Source: Clostridiales bacterium
GTDB taxonomy: Bacteria > Bacillota > Clostridia > Christensenellales > Pumilibacteraceae
Assembly (NCBI GenBank): GCA_022508505.1
Contig: JAFLVC010000013.1
Location: 1-51,788 of the forward strand
DNA: 51,788 bases
Direction: 5' to 3'
Under the pieces are notes generated by a model that saw nothing but the letters and a program-made list of their open reading frames with translations, was not told where the DNA came from and did no database searches. The position numbers were made by a program, and so were the translations under genes. Shown in pieces: positions 20,431 to 25,722 of this stretch; the stretch's first letter is position 1, and each line of letters opens with the position of its first letter.

Positions 20431-20540
20431 TTTCACATCCCCTCAGTCAGCTACGCTGACAGCTCCCCTTATTAAGGGGAGCCTGACAGTCCCTCAGTCT
20501 GCCGCAAGCGGCAGCCAGGTCTTACACAGGGGAGCCGAAT
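20431..20540 (+). repeat. P1 plus P2 dispersed double-hairpin repeats
   Basis: P1 (20431-20483): TTTCACATCCCCTCAGTC, hairpin AGC-tac-GCT, GACAGCTCCCCTT-att-AAGGGGAGCC. P2 (20485-20540): GACAGTCCCTCAG, hairpin CTGCCG-caag-CGGCAG, then the CTTACACAGGGGAGCCGAAT end. The stretch 20541-20623 holds two more small hairpins (CGCGCGGAGCGCG and GCGGC-gaa-GCCGC) and nothing coding. Together with the next entries this fills the 493-base gap before dnaX. Confidence 0.85.
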
Positions 20541-20623
20541 AGTGGTCGCGCGGAGCGCGAGAAATAAATAATGCGGCGAAGCCGCGACCGCAATTTTCAC
20601 TATTATCTATTCATTATTCATTT

Positions 20624-20683
20624 ATTTCACATCCCCTCAGTCGGCGCCTTCGTCGCCGACAGCTCCCCTTATTAAGGGGAGCC
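20624..20683 (+). repeat. P1 dispersed double-hairpin repeat
   Basis: Same frame as the other P1 copies, but the first stem is replaced by CGGCG-ccttcg-CGCCG type sequence with complementarity kept. It ends AAGGGGAGCC and is followed by GAATAGTGGTCGCGCG, shared with the end of the preceding P2 copy. Confidence 0.82.
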
Positions 20684-20724
20684 GAATAGTGGTCGCGCGA
20701 AGCACGCGTTCCCGTCCCTCTGCA

Positions 20725-20812
20725 AGAGTGGCGTTTAGCAATTTCTAACGACACGCAACTCGTCGGGCGTAACGCACAATTACCGACGGTAGCACATACA
20801 CGAAGGTTAAAA
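20725..20812 (+). repeat. CGTCGGGTGTA hairpin-family repeat (copy B)
   Basis: GTGGCGTTTAGCAATTTC, TAACGACACGCA, ACTCGTCGGGCGTAAC, spacer, CACATACACGA and GGTTAAAAA. It aligns with copies at 22989, 23104, 44464 and 49956; the closing stem is weaker here. It lies directly upstream of the dnaX promoter. Confidence 0.7.
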
Positions 20813-20820
20813 ATTTCTTG

Positions 20821-20880: not shown

Positions 20881-22629
20881 ATGGCAACGCTATATAGAAA
20901 ATACAGAAGCAAGACATTCGACGACGTAATCGGACAGGACCCGATTGTGACGACGCTGACCAACCAGATAAAGCTGGGCAGGATCGGGCATGCGTATCTG
21001 TTTTCGGGCAGCCGCGGCATAGGCAAAACATCGTGCGCGAGGATATTCGCGCGCGCGGTCAACTGTCTGCACCCGATAAACGGCAGTCCGTGCGGCGAGT
21101 GCGAGGTGTGCAAAAAGCTGGACGCGCCCGACAACGTAGATATAATCGAGCTCGACGCGGCGAGCAACAACGGCGTGGACGACGCGCGGGATATCCGCGA
21201 AAAGGTCAAGTATCTGCCCGTCTGCGGCAAGTACAAGGTGTACATCATCGACGAGGTGCACATGCTGACCGGCGGCGCGTTTAACGCGCTGCTCAAGACC
21301 ATCGAGGAGCCGCCCGAGCACGTCATATTCATTCTCGCGACGACCGAGCCGCAAAAGCTTCCGCAGACCATACTCTCGCGGTGCGTGCGGTTCGACTTCC
21401 GGCTCGTTCCGACCGACGTGCTTTCAAAGCATATTCAAAAGGTGTACGACGCGGAAGGCATCAAGTACACCAAAGACGCCGCGGACGAAATAGCTCGGCT
21501 CGGCGAGGGCAGTGTGCGCGACGCGCTCTCCATTGCCGACACGCTCGGCTCGGCGGCGGACGTCGTAACGCCCGAGATCGTGCTGGCGCTGACAGGCGCG
21601 GGCGACTCGACGGCGATATCCGAACTGTTCGACAGGGCGTCGGCGCGCGACATAGCGGGGTGTCTTAACGCGGTAGACACGCTCGCAAAAAGCGGAAAGT
21701 CAATGAGCGCAGTCGTTCGCCAGCTCGAAACGTATGCGAGGAACGCGCTCGTTATCAAGTCGGTAGGATACGACAAGGCGCTGTCGTCGGGGCTACTCAA
21801 CGTCGACCGCACACAGGCGGAACGGCTCAAAAAGTCGTGCGAGACGTGCGACATTGCGACGTGCGCCAAGCTTCTCGAAAGCTTTTCGGAAGCTGAGAAC
21901 GGCCTCAAATACTCGGTGAGCCCGCGGCTGTACCTCGAAACGTCGCTCGTAAAACTGACCTGCGACGACGCCGACGACCTGAGAAAGCGCGTAGCCGCGC
22001 TCGAAAAACGCCTCTCCGCAACGCCCGTTGCGGAGCAAAAAAAAAATATAGATAGCGCGCCGCAAAAAAGCGCGCCCATACCTCCGAAGAGCATTCCGCA
22101 AGAGTACGACTACGAGCCCCCGCCCGAGCCCGACGCTTACGCGCGTAGGATTGAAAAACCGACGCCGACCAAAGTGCAGAGCACACCGCCTAAAGCGCAG
22201 AGTGTGCCGCGCTCGGCGGAAGTCAAGTACACGCCTGTCGAGATTCCCAAGACCATGCCCAAAAAAGCGGACGAGGGCGAGTTCATGCACGTTCGAAGCG
22301 ACTCGGTGTCCGGCTTGGAGCTTCTCGGAAAAATCGCCACGTACCTTCGAAAGAGCGGCGACGGCGAGGCGGCGCGCGTGCGCGAGCTACTCTCGCGCGG
22401 CGTCGCGGTAAAAGAGCGCGAGGACGTCACGGCGTTCGTCGTGCCCGACGACAGCTTTCTATTGATGAGCGAAAAGCACGTGGTCGGCATACTCGACGAA
22501 GCGCTCAAAGCCGTCGGAGTGACAAAGCCCGCGAGCATAGAAAAGACGGACGAGGACCTGTACGCCGACGACCTCGCACGCGCTCGAGAGCTGTTTGGGC
22601 GGGACAATGTAGTGGGTAGGAATAGATAA
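20881..22629 (+). CDS. dnaX: DNA polymerase III subunits gamma/tau
   Basis: Clamp-loader ATPase and organiser of the replicative polymerase. Full-length tau is 582 residues. AAA+ features: YRKYRSKTFDDVIGQD at the start, Walker A GSRGIGKTS (43-51), a four-Cys zinc module (CLHP...CGECEVC), Walker B IIDEVHML, sensor ATTEPQKLP and the arginine finger in LSRC. Domain III ends near 375. A poly-A run at codons 386-389, framed by two hairpins, can shift the frame to an immediate stop and yield a gamma-like ~390-residue protein (see separate entry). Beyond it comes a Pro-rich linker and a short C-terminal domain (about 470-560) of tau type. The mRNA appears leaderless. recR is not found just downstream. 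Confidence 0.95.
   Translation: MATLYRKYRSKTFDDVIGQDPIVTTLTNQIKLGRIGHAYLFSGSRGIGKTSCARIFARAVNCLHPINGSPCGECEVCKKLDAPDNVDIIELDAASNNGVDDARDIREKVKYLPVCGKYKVYIIDEVHMLTGGAFNALLKTIEEPPEHVIFILATTEPQKLPQTILSRCVRFDFRLVPTDVLSKHIQKVYDAEGIKYTKDAADEIARLGEGSVRDALSIADTLGSAADVVTPEIVLALTGAGDSTAISELFDRASARDIAGCLNAVDTLAKSGKSMSAVVRQLETYARNALVIKSVGYDKALSSGLLNVDRTQAERLKKSCETCDIATCAKLLESFSEAENGLKYSVSPRLYLETSLVKLTCDDADDLRKRVAALEKRLSATPVAEQKKNIDSAPQKSAPIPPKSIPQEYDYEPPPEPDAYARRIEKPTPTKVQSTPPKAQSVPRSAEVKYTPVEIPKTMPKKADEGEFMHVRSDSVSGLELLGKIATYLRKSGDGEAARVRELLSRGVAVKEREDVTAFVVPDDSFLLMSEKHVVGILDEALKAVGVTKPASIEKTDEDLYADDLARARELFGRDNVVGRNR
22014..22075 (+). other. dnaX slippage site: hairpin, A10, hairpin
   Basis: A perfect 9-bp stem CTCCGCAAC (22014-22022) / GTTGCGGAG (22027-22035) with a GCCC loop, one C, then ten A (22037-22046), then eight bases later a GCGCGC (22055-22060) / GCGCGC (22070-22075) stem. 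In frame zero the run reads CAA AAA AAA AAT. A -1 shift or one added A reads into TAT AGA TAG (stop 22053-22055); one lost A reads ATA TAG (stop 22049-22051). Either gives a product truncated just after domain III, as gamma is in E. coli (ribosomal frameshift) and Thermus (transcriptional slippage). Confidence 0.75.
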
Positions 22630-22640
22630 GAGATAAGAGG

Positions 22641-22764
22641 GACAGTCCCTCAGTCTGCCGCAAGCGGCAGCCAGCTCCCCTTACACAGGGGAGCCGAATA
22701 AAGATGAAGCGCGGGATTGAATGCCCGCGCTTTTCAGATTCCTCGACAAGCTCGGAATGACACA
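22641..22764 (+). repeat. Composite 3'-end block, copy 1 (P2 + terminator hairpin + tail)
   Basis: Starts 11 bases after the dnaX stop. P2-type opening GACAGTCCCTCAG with first stem CTGCCG/CGGCAG and CTCCCCTTACACAGGGGAG; then GAATAAAGATG; then AAGCGCGGG-attgaatg-CCCGCGCTTTT, a terminator-like hairpin; then CAGATTCCTCGACAAGCTCGG and AATGACACA. Copies 2 and 3 are at 33729 and 49808, each just after a stop codon. It probably terminates dnaX transcription. Confidence 0.8.
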
Positions 22765-22865
22765 GTAAAAGCAATTCCTCATTGAAAAGAAGAGCCGTAA
22801 AAAAATGCGCTGTTGTACTAACGGTGTCATTCTGAGCGGAGCGATAGCGCAGTCGAAGAATCTGT

Positions 22866-22973
22866 TTTCACATCCCCTCAGTCAGCTTCGCTGACAGCTC
22901 CCCTTATTAAGGGGAGCCTGAACAGTCCCTCAGTCTGCCGCAAGCGGCAGACAGGTCTTGCACAGGGGAGCCT
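22866..22973 (+). repeat. P1 plus P2 dispersed repeats
   Basis: P1 (22866-22918) with first stem CAGC-ttc-GCTG, directly followed by P2 (22919-22973) with stem CTGCCG-caag-CGGCAG, the same order as at 20431. The stretch 22765-22865 between the composite block and this pair holds GTCATTCTGAGCGGAGCG and GTCGAAGAATCTG, pieces of another dispersed sequence also at 33915 and 50026. Confidence 0.82.
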
Positions 22974-22988
22974 GATAGGGGGTGCGCA

Positions 22989-23190
22989 AAAACGCTCTAC
23001 TGCCGTCATTCACGACAGAGAGGCGTTTTTTCTTTCTAACGATACGCACCTCGTCGGGTGAAACCTCGTATCACTCTCGCAGCAAACACACGACGGTTAA
23101 AAAAGTGGCGTTGAGTAATTTTTAACGATACGCATCTCGTCGGGTGTAACAAAGAACAAACCACCCAAGTCTACACACGACGGTTAAAAA
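22989..23190 (+). repeat. Tandem CGTCGGGTGTA hairpin-family repeats (copies C and D)
   Basis: Copy C (22989-23100) pairs CGTCGGGTG (23052-23060) with CACACGACG (23087-23095). Copy D (23104-23190) pairs CGTCGGGTGTA (23138-23148) with TACACACGACG (23172-23182): 10 of 11 pairs, 23-base loop. Both end GGTTAAAAA. Copy C also shares its upstream part (GTCATTCACGACAGA) with copy G at 44464. Nothing coding was seen in 22630-23259. Confidence 0.78.
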
Positions 23191-23259: not shown

Positions 23260-25722
23260 ATGCTACAGGTACGGTGCACAAATTGCGGTTATGCCGCCAT
23301 AGTTCCCGACGAGACGGGGGAGTTTTGCAAGTGCGAGGCGTGCGGGAGCACGTTTTTGGTCAAGAAGGCGACAGCGTTTTCCAAGGTCGAGCTTGACCAC
23401 ACGCACGACGTTCGCGCGTGGCGCGAGTATCTTGCAAAACAGCTCCGACTGCAGCAGGAGAGCAGCAAGGCGCGCGATTACGGCGGCGTCAAGCTGTTCG
23501 CGCAAAAAATCCTGTCGGTACTGCCCGACGATTTCTGCGCGATGTACTACCTCGCGCTCGCCGAGCGCTACAGCGACAACGATACGGCGTTCGTACACTT
23601 TTTGAGCAGCGCCAATCTGTCCGACGCGACGACCGACGAGATAAAAGAGGTTACCGATTCCGTCGTTGCGACGGTCGAGCCCAAGTACCTCGACGACGTC
23701 AAGGCTTTTCTCGTGCGCGCACACGGCGCGGGGGCTTCGGCTTTCGACGCGGCGCTCGAGCGCAACGTCAAAAGCCATATACAAAAGCTGCGGCTCGCCG
23801 CGCAAAACGAGCGCGACGTGTTTATATGCCACCGCACTGCCGCACCGGATCAGGATATTGCGGACGCAATATGCACGCGGCTCGAAGAGCGGGGCTTAAG
23901 GTGCTGGATTGCGCCGCGCAACATTCTCGCCGGCTCGCAGAACTACGACCGCGACATAATAAAGGGCGTCGAAAACTGCCGGCTGTTCCTCTTTGTTTCG
24001 AGCTTCAAGTCGATATACTCGGAGGACTGCGAGACCGAGCTTCGCGCGGCGGTGCTCGCCGACAAGGTGCTGTACAGCTACCGCATAGACGACACGGAGT
24101 ACGACGGCGCGTCGAGAAAGGCGCTGTCGTCGGTGCAGTGGCTGGACGCGATCGACGACCCGTACGCGCACCTCGAGCAGCTCGTAATAGACATCAAGGG
24201 CATGCTCGCCGAGGACGAGCGCGAAAAGGCGATACTCGAAGAAAAGCGGCTCGCCGCGCGCGAGCTCGAACGCCGCCGTGCCGAAGAGCAGCGGTCGCGC
24301 GACAAGGAACGGCTCGAGCGGCTCGAGAAGATGGTTTCCGGCGAAACGCACGCGGCCCCTACATACAATTACCGCGCAAAACTCAAGCGCGCCGAAATAG
24401 AAGTGGAATCGGGCAACTATTCCCGCGCCGAGGACATGCTCGACGGCGTGCTCGACTGCGATCCCGAAAACGCGCTCGCTTGGTGGTTGCTCATGCTGTG
24501 CGACTACCGCGTGAAAAACGACGCGGAGCTAGTCGCGCTCAACAGGGATTTTACGGTCAACGCCAATTACAAGAACGCGGTGCGGTTTGCCGACCCCGCC
24601 ATTCGGCGCAGAATAGACCGCGCGACAAACGACTACGACGTTCGCGCCATAAAAACGGTCAACGAGGCGCTCGACGAGGCGGAAAGATACTACAAGTTCG
24701 AGGATTTCACGTCGGTAAACAGAACGCTCGACAAGTGCAAGGGCGCGTTCGAGGATGAGGACGGAATAATATTTTCGCGGTTCCCCGACGTCGCGAGCAG
24801 GTACTATTGGCTTAGGCTGTGGGCCAAGTACGGACAGACGCCGCTCGTCTGCGTGGAGGACATAACGCGCGAGCGCGAATACAAGGCGGCGGTCAAGTAC
24901 GCCTCGCCCGCGCAGGCGGCGGAGTACGAAAAGGCGAGGGCGACTGTGTCCAAGAACGCGCAGCTCTTCCTGAGAGAACGCAGCAAGAACAGATCGAACG
25001 ACGGCAAGCTCGTCGACTACCTGGTCGACAACAAGAACATTCTGCCGATCGAAATATACAATTACTACTCGTCGCTGCTGTACTTCCGTAAGATGCTCAA
25101 AGGTCTCAATATGACCGAAGCGCAGTTAAAAGCGTCCGCGATTGACATATCGACCAACGAGTACTTCATGCTCGCGCAGTCTCTGGCGACGCCCGAACAA
25201 AAGATTGCGTACGACGAGCTCGCGGCGACGCTCGACGCAAACCGCGAGAACAGGCGAAGGTGCGACGCCGAAGCGCGCGCCAAACGCGAGAGCGGGCAAG
25301 CTCAAATCGACGCGCCGCCCAAGCCGAGCGCGGCAAAAACGGCAGTGATGTGGATAGTGTCGCTTGTGTCGTACGTGCTGTTTATCTCCGGCATTGTCAC
25401 GTTTGCGACGGGCATTTCCAAGTTCGACTATATGACGATAAGCGGTATTGTCATATACGACCGAAGCGACGCGCTGACGTCGGCATGCGTGCTGTTTATC
25501 GTGTCGGCGGTGTTTCGCATAGTGAGCGGAAGCCTCAAGCCGCCGATCGCAATTGCGGTCATCAACCTGGCGCTCTGCGGAATAGCCTTTCCCATTCTGT
25601 TGGTTATAGGCAGTTATACATATTTTGTGGGCGAGGTTATAGGCGCGCTCATTTTAACAATCGTCGCTTTTGTGCTCGGCATTACGGCGATAACCAAAAA
25701 CAAAAACAATAAAAAGAGGTGA
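23260..25722 (+). CDS. Zinc-ribbon / TIR-domain / four-helix membrane protein
   Basis: 820 residues. N-terminal zinc ribbon with Cys6, Cys9, Cys25 and Cys28. A helical segment (40-180) is followed by a TIR domain (about 186-318): DVFICHR opens strand A, and the helix CETELRAA carries Glu260 at the position of the catalytic Glu in NAD-cleaving TIRs. Then come a charged coiled coil (316-358), a long helical TPR-like region (370-690) and about four membrane helices (693-815). TIR proteins act as NADases or signalling scaffolds in bacterial defence and elsewhere; enzymatic activity here is inference. The stop is five bases before the SPFH gene, so the two are probably co-translated. The 5' side is repeat-rich and the mRNA nearly leaderless. 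Confidence 0.85.
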   Translation: MLQVRCTNCGYAAIVPDETGEFCKCEACGSTFLVKKATAFSKVELDHTHDVRAWREYLAKQLRLQQESSKARDYGGVKLFAQKILSVLPDDFCAMYYLALAERYSDNDTAFVHFLSSANLSDATTDEIKEVTDSVVATVEPKYLDDVKAFLVRAHGAGASAFDAALERNVKSHIQKLRLAAQNERDVFICHRTAAPDQDIADAICTRLEERGLRCWIAPRNILAGSQNYDRDIIKGVENCRLFLFVSSFKSIYSEDCETELRAAVLADKVLYSYRIDDTEYDGASRKALSSVQWLDAIDDPYAHLEQLVIDIKGMLAEDEREKAILEEKRLAARELERRRAEEQRSRDKERLERLEKMVSGETHAAPTYNYRAKLKRAEIEVESGNYSRAEDMLDGVLDCDPENALAWWLLMLCDYRVKNDAELVALNRDFTVNANYKNAVRFADPAIRRRIDRATNDYDVRAIKTVNEALDEAERYYKFEDFTSVNRTLDKCKGAFEDEDGIIFSRFPDVASRYYWLRLWAKYGQTPLVCVEDITREREYKAAVKYASPAQAAEYEKARATVSKNAQLFLRERSKNRSNDGKLVDYLVDNKNILPIEIYNYYSSLLYFRKMLKGLNMTEAQLKASAIDISTNEYFMLAQSLATPEQKIAYDELAATLDANRENRRRCDAEARAKRESGQAQIDAPPKPSAAKTAVMWIVSLVSYVLFISGIVTFATGISKFDYMTISGIVIYDRSDALTSACVLFIVSAVFRIVSGSLKPPIAIAVINLALCGIAFPILLVIGSYTYFVGEVIGALILTIVAFVLGITAITKNKNNKKR

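Follow-up and report, generated by a model that had tools for sequence, protein, structure and literature searches.

Background

Slippage on an A run in dnaX is known from Thermus, in which the run comprises nine A's (PMC5009743, PMC1088944), mRNAs with varying numbers of A are produced and tau and gamma are about equal in amount. In Escherichia coli, gamma is also made from the tau gene at an A run with an immediate stop, the signals being an A6G heptamer, a distant Shine-Dalgarno sequence and a downstream stem (PMC5009743, PMC3711429, PMC6321510). Transcriptional realignment has been proposed for nine two-ORF dnaX genes with 10 A in the GeneTack set, and the occurrence of two framings of one function at a homopolymer serves there as a criterion for it (PMC3711429). 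Outside dnaX, slippage in the Roseiflexus IS630 element is driven by an inverted repeat lying immediately 5' of a 10-nt motif, and the nascent stem, according to one proposal, melts the RNA-DNA hybrid at its upstream end (PMC5009743); transcriptional slippage has also been reported for IS1447 of Clostridium thermocellum, which has A9 with a predicted adjacent stem-loop (PMC6211511). In the accessible portions of the open literature, stem-loop-assisted slippage is described for insertion sequences.

The dnaX gene analyzed here lies on a stretch of 51,788 nucleotides (the window) from contig JAFLVC010000013.1 of the Clostridiales bacterium assembly GCA_022508505.1. It resembles Thermus thermophilus dnaX in the gene itself, the expected tau/gamma outcome, the A run in the sense strand and the presence of tau in one frame with stops in the other two; it differs in having A10 instead of A9 and a covarying hairpin that abuts the run, none being mentioned for Thermus in the available excerpts. 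An A10 in dnaX is shared with the two-ORF set, whose out-of-frame layout matches one relative (G004) and 14 loci of family f29; in contrast, the window and 17 relatives carry tau in frame, so that gamma would need a slip, and a hairpin is not described in the accessible part of that work (PMC3711429). Roseiflexus IS630 has in common with the present site a 5'-adjacent inverted repeat and a nascent RNA stem beside the hybrid, whereas its motif is T5C5, its slippage is by deletion only and it is an insertion sequence, compared with A10 in a housekeeping gene (PMC5009743, in part). IS1447, which is also from Firmicutes, combines an A run with an adjacent stem-loop, but lies in a transposase gene and its stem includes two A's of the run, whereas the dnaX stem stops 0-2 bases short (PMC6211511, in part). 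The open-licence literature, so far as accessible, yielded no dnaX with a hairpin abutting the A run, and other literature may contain one; dnaX A-run slippage is known and the covarying hairpin abutting the run in dnaX is apparently new.

Layout of the dnaX site

The full dnaX frame (tau, 582 aa) occupies positions 20881-22629 of the forward strand and its product scored above the curated cut-offs of the NCBIfam models TIGR02397 and NF004046. Pfam analysis identified DNA_pol3_delta2, AAA, DNAX_ATPase_lid and DNA_pol3_gamma3 (domain III), the last match ending at residue 361. After domain III the sense strand carries, as in Thermus, a run of at least nine A's: the candidate slippage run is A10 at 22037-22046 (+), read as CAA AAA AAA AAT and encoding residues 386-389. 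A transcript hairpin with a perfect 9-bp stem was predicted by RNAfold at 22014-22035 (+) and is also marked by covariation within the genus. It consists of the 5' arm CTCCGCAAC (22014-22022), the loop GCCC (22023-22026) and the 3' arm GTTGCGGAG (22027-22035), all on the forward strand, and is separated from the run by a lone C at 22036 (+) that is invariant in the alignment of 19 genus genes.

Both shifted frames close directly behind the run. The +1-frame TAG at 22049-22051 (+) would end the product of a 9-A transcript at 389 aa, and the -1-frame TAG at 22053-22055 (+) would end the product of an 11-A transcript, or of a -1 ribosomal shift, at 391 aa. Further downstream, RNAfold gave a 6-bp stem, GCGCGC/GCGCGC (22055-22060 with 22070-22075), at 22055-22075 (+). 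An earlier sequence-only reading had reported a 9-bp stem ending one base 5' of the A10, immediate stops at 22049 and 22053, a gamma-like product of about 390 aa that ends just past domain III, and a GCGCGC stem 3' of the run; all four were confirmed in the window's own sequence, with all coordinates exact.

Rarity of the run and choice of codons

Neither strand of the 1.89-Mb assembly (about 97% complete) has any A or T run of 10 or more besides the A10 in dnaX, compared with 16.7 such runs expected per genome under a first-order Markov model, which was derived from 442 kb of the same genome (the window plus fetched stretches, some of them picked for holding A9). Runs of A8 showed no excess over shuffles in the 52-kb window, the only sequence used for this comparison. 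Given the residues QKKN, the probability of CAA AAA AAA AAT under the genome's own codon use is 0.014. In the codon alignment of the 18 genus genes with A10, this is the only four-codon block that is identical throughout, and it is located in the otherwise variable dnaX linker. Among 230 degenerate columns whose residue is invariant in these genes, a single codon is used throughout in only 17, and the other 213 vary.

Conservation within the genus

The genus sample comprised 20 genomes including that of the window. A dnaX gene was found in all of them, and 19 were readable at the site, the contig of G017 ending inside dnaX before it. At the homologous codon the run is A10 in 18 of the 19 genes; the exception, G004 (locus L021), has A11, with which the zero frame encodes the gamma-length product and tau is shifted out of it. 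This A11 could be an assembly error, as it comes from a single assembly that is 94% complete with 7% contamination. The sequence GGAKCAAAAAAAAAAWA occurs once per genome, inside dnaX, in 18 of the 20 genomes, G004 and G017 being those that lack it. In 14 of 19 assemblies the dnaX run is the sole A or T run of 10 or more. The remaining five (G003, G006, G007, G015 and G018) have seven further such runs between them, taken from the A9 list; four of these were read: the one in G018 falls within the frame of a TIR-gene relative, and no long reading frame contains the other three.

The stops behind the run are kept as well. A +1-frame stop is present within 8 nt past the run in all 18 A10 genes, and 17 of them, all but L004 (69 nt), also have a -1-frame stop within 6 nt, so that tau in one frame and stops in the other two, the Thermus arrangement, is seen at 17 of the 18 sites and at L004 in one shifted frame only. 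Both shifted frames close as fast as in the window's dnaX at 0.75% of 114,170 background codon sites. The +1 stops are located 2, 5 or 8 nt past the run and may be TAG, TAA or TGA; since both the distances and the codons differ, this suggests that they have been remade more than once.

With respect to a Thermus-like argument from two lysine isoacceptors, a CUU tRNA-Lys was confirmed in all five relatives for which a candidate was fetched. None was found in the window's own genome by pattern, by DNA search or by ARAGORN on the matches.

Placement, strength and covariation of the upstream hairpin

Hairpins ending 1-2 nt before an anchor were scored at 1561 anchors along the 19 genus genes. The anchor at the run start ranked first of all 1561 by mean energy, with -12.4 kcal/mol compared with -1.9 over all anchors (sd 1.36), and at more than 6 nt from the run start the lowest mean was -8.6 kcal/mol. 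At the run start all 19 sequences have a hairpin of -8.0 kcal/mol or better, the weakest being L019 (-8.8) and L020 (-8.0 kcal/mol), whereas at no anchor more than 6 nt away do more than 14 of 19 reach even -6 kcal/mol. When the sequences were folded freely, the gap between stem and run was one base in 14 of 19 genes, two in L004, L017 and L020 and zero in L016 and L019; because of this range of 0-2 bases, the spacing is not rigid.

Pairing rather than sequence is kept in the stem, which, as in the IS630 element, stands directly 5' of the motif in 19 of 19 genes. Pairing holds for 84.5% of the 168 cells of the MAFFT alignment, compared with 34-55% when the partners are slid by 1-3 columns, and two-sided changes occur in six of the nine stem pairs. 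The covariation score was best at slide 0 and was reached by none of 500 shuffles, which ignore relatedness. Parsimony on the gene tree counted 11 two-sided pair-keeping changes, 5 one-sided changes and 20 breaks; the underlying alignment is imperfect, L019-L021 being shifted out of register. RNAalifold recovered only five of the nine stem pairs, with a covariation term of -0.18 kcal/mol. The hairpin energy is below the mean of synonymous recodings in 19 of 19 genes and beats 95% of the recodings in only six, and a 101-nt fold of the site has a z of -1.79. Hairpin strength alone is therefore unremarkable, and the evidence is taken from the exact placement and the covariation. An Rfam search of 301 bases, conducted for any known RNA element at the site, returned two unrelated matches at chance level (E up to 10), far below the cut-off.

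Sequences downstream of the run and the GGAG motif

A downstream stem common to the genus was not found: at any one spacer of 2-15 nt, start-anchored stems reach -6 kcal/mol in at most 7 of the 19 genes, and the 45-nt segments that follow the run have a mean energy weaker than that of 186 among 242 other offsets. The GCGCGC stem is private to the window sequence, without a counterpart common to the 19 genes, and probably lies outside the device. GGAG occurs just upstream of the run in 17 of 19 genes, ending 1 nt before it in 16 and 3 nt before it in L021; L017 and L020 lack it and both retain a stem. As the main signal, acting as a Shine-Dalgarno sequence, GGAG was rejected for its wrong spacing and for its absence from these two genes. 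GGGG is present 12-13 nt upstream of the run in only three of 19. Thus neither a conserved 3' stem-loop nor an internal Shine-Dalgarno sequence about 10 nt 5' of the heptamer, both of the E. coli type, was detected.

The expectation from the window alone had been that the A run, both stems and the flanking stops would persist in relatives while third positions vary. This held for the run, the upstream stem and the stops and failed for the downstream stem, and the proposal that paired upstream and downstream stems would allow either mechanism is unsupported because the downstream stem is not conserved. The central proposal, a recoding site with an upstream hairpin abutting a slippage-prone run, gained support from the conservation in the genus.

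Distribution beyond the genus

Most of the dnaX genes read outside the genus are without the run. Fifty loci from other genera of the family were read (L023-L072, among which L068 and L072 start late), and eight of these (L041, L053, L054, L055, L058, L063, L068 and L070) have A9 or A10 at positions matching residues 365-396 of the dnaX product in the window. The abutting hairpin is strong in the two loci of genus g11 (-13.4 and -14.9 kcal/mol), reaches -8.3 kcal/mol in L053 (g15) and is absent from the other five. In locus L068 (G071, g17) a single dnaX holds two A10 runs at a distance of 12 codons from each other, and both shifted frames close shortly after each of them.

Across the order, 211 of 217 genomes yielded a dnaX gene, and 40 of these loci were fetched, 18 from family f29 (most of them chosen for short reading frames) and 22 from other families. 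In f29, the zero frame of 14 of the 18 loci closes directly behind an A9 or A10 run (361-366 aa), tau (473-537 aa) being in the -1 frame; the third frame is also closed within a few codons. An abutting stem is lacking in 13 of the 14 and amounts to -3.8 kcal/mol in one. These f29 loci with the opposite framing (L199-L212, from G205, G217, G307, G249 and others) belong to genomes of 0.8-1.3 Mb, and their dnaX stretches have 31-43% GC. Among the 22 loci from other families, three (L221, L230 and L233) have A9 in the region, and no run reaches 8 in the other 19. Since runs occur in both framings within the order, the hairpin is an added layer in the genus and in g11.

Among 80 of 594 named relatives, at least five (L073, L075, L076, L099 and L151) have A9 or A10 in the region, and the closest dnaX among the same 80 is that of Candidatus Caccovivens faecavium (Clostridia), with 54% identity. 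L151, a Bacteroidetes MAG record, has A9 at residue 368 of dnaX with an abutting stem of -8.5 kcal/mol and stops within about 10 codons in both shifted frames.

A covariance model was searched against 396 genomes of the order, 19 of which gave a match at E<=0.01. Eight matches are strong and all lie in dnaX of the genus; eleven are weak (E 3e-5 to 0.009), compared with about four expected by chance. Of the weak matches seven lie on a different contig from dnaX, and four were not placed; six of the loci were read. The g11 genome G058 (dnaX site L054) was missed by the model and found by reading loci. Two weak matches outside dnaX, L165 (G028) and L164 (G075), have A10 behind a predicted hairpin in frames of 783 and 643 codons, respectively, from stop to stop; they may be chance matches or further slippage sites.

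Proposed mechanism and alternative explanations

From the layout of the site, its conservation, the covariation of the stem, the stops in both shifted frames and the rarity of the run, we infer that the run slips, probably during transcription and probably stimulated by the hairpin, and that the gamma so made would be used. Programmed, hairpin-assisted transcriptional slippage at the A10, making gamma from the tau gene, is in our judgement the likely explanation. Once the ten A's have been transcribed, weak rA:dT pairs would make up nearly the whole RNA-DNA hybrid (9-10 bp), and the 9-bp hairpin would just have formed behind the polymerase, one base upstream of the A-filled hybrid. The hairpin would tug at the upstream edge of the hybrid in the manner of an intrinsic terminator, with A in place of U, and the transcript could then realign to give mRNAs with 9, 11 or other numbers of A. 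An mRNA with A10 (or ten plus or minus three) would encode tau of 582 aa, and other counts would lead to a stop within three codons and hence to a gamma of about 390 aa that extends only a little beyond domain III. Several considerations count against this proposal: trailing ribosomes could prevent the hairpin from folding; the f29 runs, if they slip, would do so without such a hairpin; the hairpin energy stands out from synonymous recodings in only six of 19 genes, the stems of L019 and L020 are the weakest and the spacing is not rigid; the parsimony count includes 20 breaks and RNAalifold recovers only five pairs; and the A11 of G004 could be an error. With somewhat less assurance, we lean towards the view that a compensatorily kept nascent-RNA hairpin sets the rate of A10 slippage in dnaX, and hence the tau:gamma ratio, across the genus.

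Ribosomal -1 frameshifting in the style of E. coli dnaX, with a slip on A_AAA_AAA, GGAG as the Shine-Dalgarno sequence and help from the downstream stem, is unlikely. It would account for the A_AAA_AAA in the correct frame, for the -1 stop within 6 nt in 17 of 18 genes and for the GGAG just upstream in 17 of 19. However, the downstream stem is not conserved, the two genes without GGAG (L017 and L020) still have the stem, the +1 stop is kept too, G004 has A11, and the Rfam matches are unrelated and far below the cut-off. According to the accessible portion of PMC6321510, moreover, the stimulating spacing is 8-11 nt, whereas GGAG lies about 2 nt before the in-frame heptamer in 16 of 19 genes, and a duplex or hairpin adjacent to the E site attenuates -1 shifting in 70S extracts. 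The +1 stop would be superfluous at a site built purely for -1 ribosomal shifting. The A11 of G004 and the framing in f29 present two framings of one function, and on the published criterion, as given in the available part of PMC3711429, therefore point to transcriptional realignment. The evidence leans to transcriptional slippage rather than to the -1 shift because of the stops in both frames, the A11 of G004, the opposite framing in f29 and the position of the hairpin where attenuation of -1 shifting has been reported.

It is improbable that the hairpin serves RNA polymerase pausing, RNase cleavage or a slowing of the ribosome for domain folding while the A run slips alone. The f29 runs and most other A9 and A10 runs read outside the genus do have no abutting hairpin; yet within the genus each of the 19 genes has a stem that stops 0-2 nt short of the run, and the stem covaries, which would be expected if the distance between it and the hybrid were important.

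A ribosomal +1 frameshift that the hairpin next to the E site would promote, with termination at the conserved +1 stop, is very improbable. The +1 stop is the better kept of the two (18 of 18) and upstream hairpins can stimulate +1 shifting, but no +1 shifting was detected with a hairpin preceding A6G (both in the accessible part of PMC6321510), the A site holds neither a stop codon nor a known hungry codon, and the -1 stop is kept too in 17 of 18 genes. The same experiments, in which a hairpin next to the E site attenuated -1 shifting and +1 shifting on A6G went undetected, count against ribosomal readings in general.

We give equally little credence to phase variation at the DNA level, in which replication would expand or contract the run and the A11 of G004 would be a switched state. 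One A11 among 19 genes is what such a switch might leave, but the run is exactly A10 in the other 18 despite long branches in the tree, tau is generally essential, and a DNA switch does not need a conserved hairpin. Least credible is conservation by chance or at the level of the peptide, in which the EQKKN linker residues would be needed as protein and the run and hairpin would be by-products: QKKN is invariant as protein in 18 of 18 genes, with E or D preceding, and hairpins are common in this GC-rich dnaX gene, but the codons of the run are invariant while 213 of 230 other invariant residues vary theirs, the run is unique in the assembly and the stem covaries.

If hairpin-assisted transcriptional slippage is the correct explanation, bacteria would set replicase stoichiometry through an error of RNA polymerase that a nascent hairpin tunes, and the recoding signal of an essential housekeeping gene would be a terminator-like hairpin with a homopolymer. 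Hairpin-bearing dnaX would then coexist in one order with hairpin-free runs of the opposite framing, and gamma would, should the site function in this way, have been maintained by selection in the lineage. The genus with its hairpin and in-frame tau, f29 with neither the hairpin nor tau in frame, and the families without the run form a natural series in which the means and purpose of gamma production can be compared.

Neighborhood of dnaX

Several families of intergenic repeats flank dnaX in the window, at 20431-20813 and 22642-23190; they are 29-90 nt long and some are partly palindromic. Downstream of dnaX, positions 23260-25722 encode an 820-aa protein with a TIR_2 domain. In G018 (L196) a relative of this TIR gene adjoins dnaX, and an A11 lies inside its frame near the contig end.
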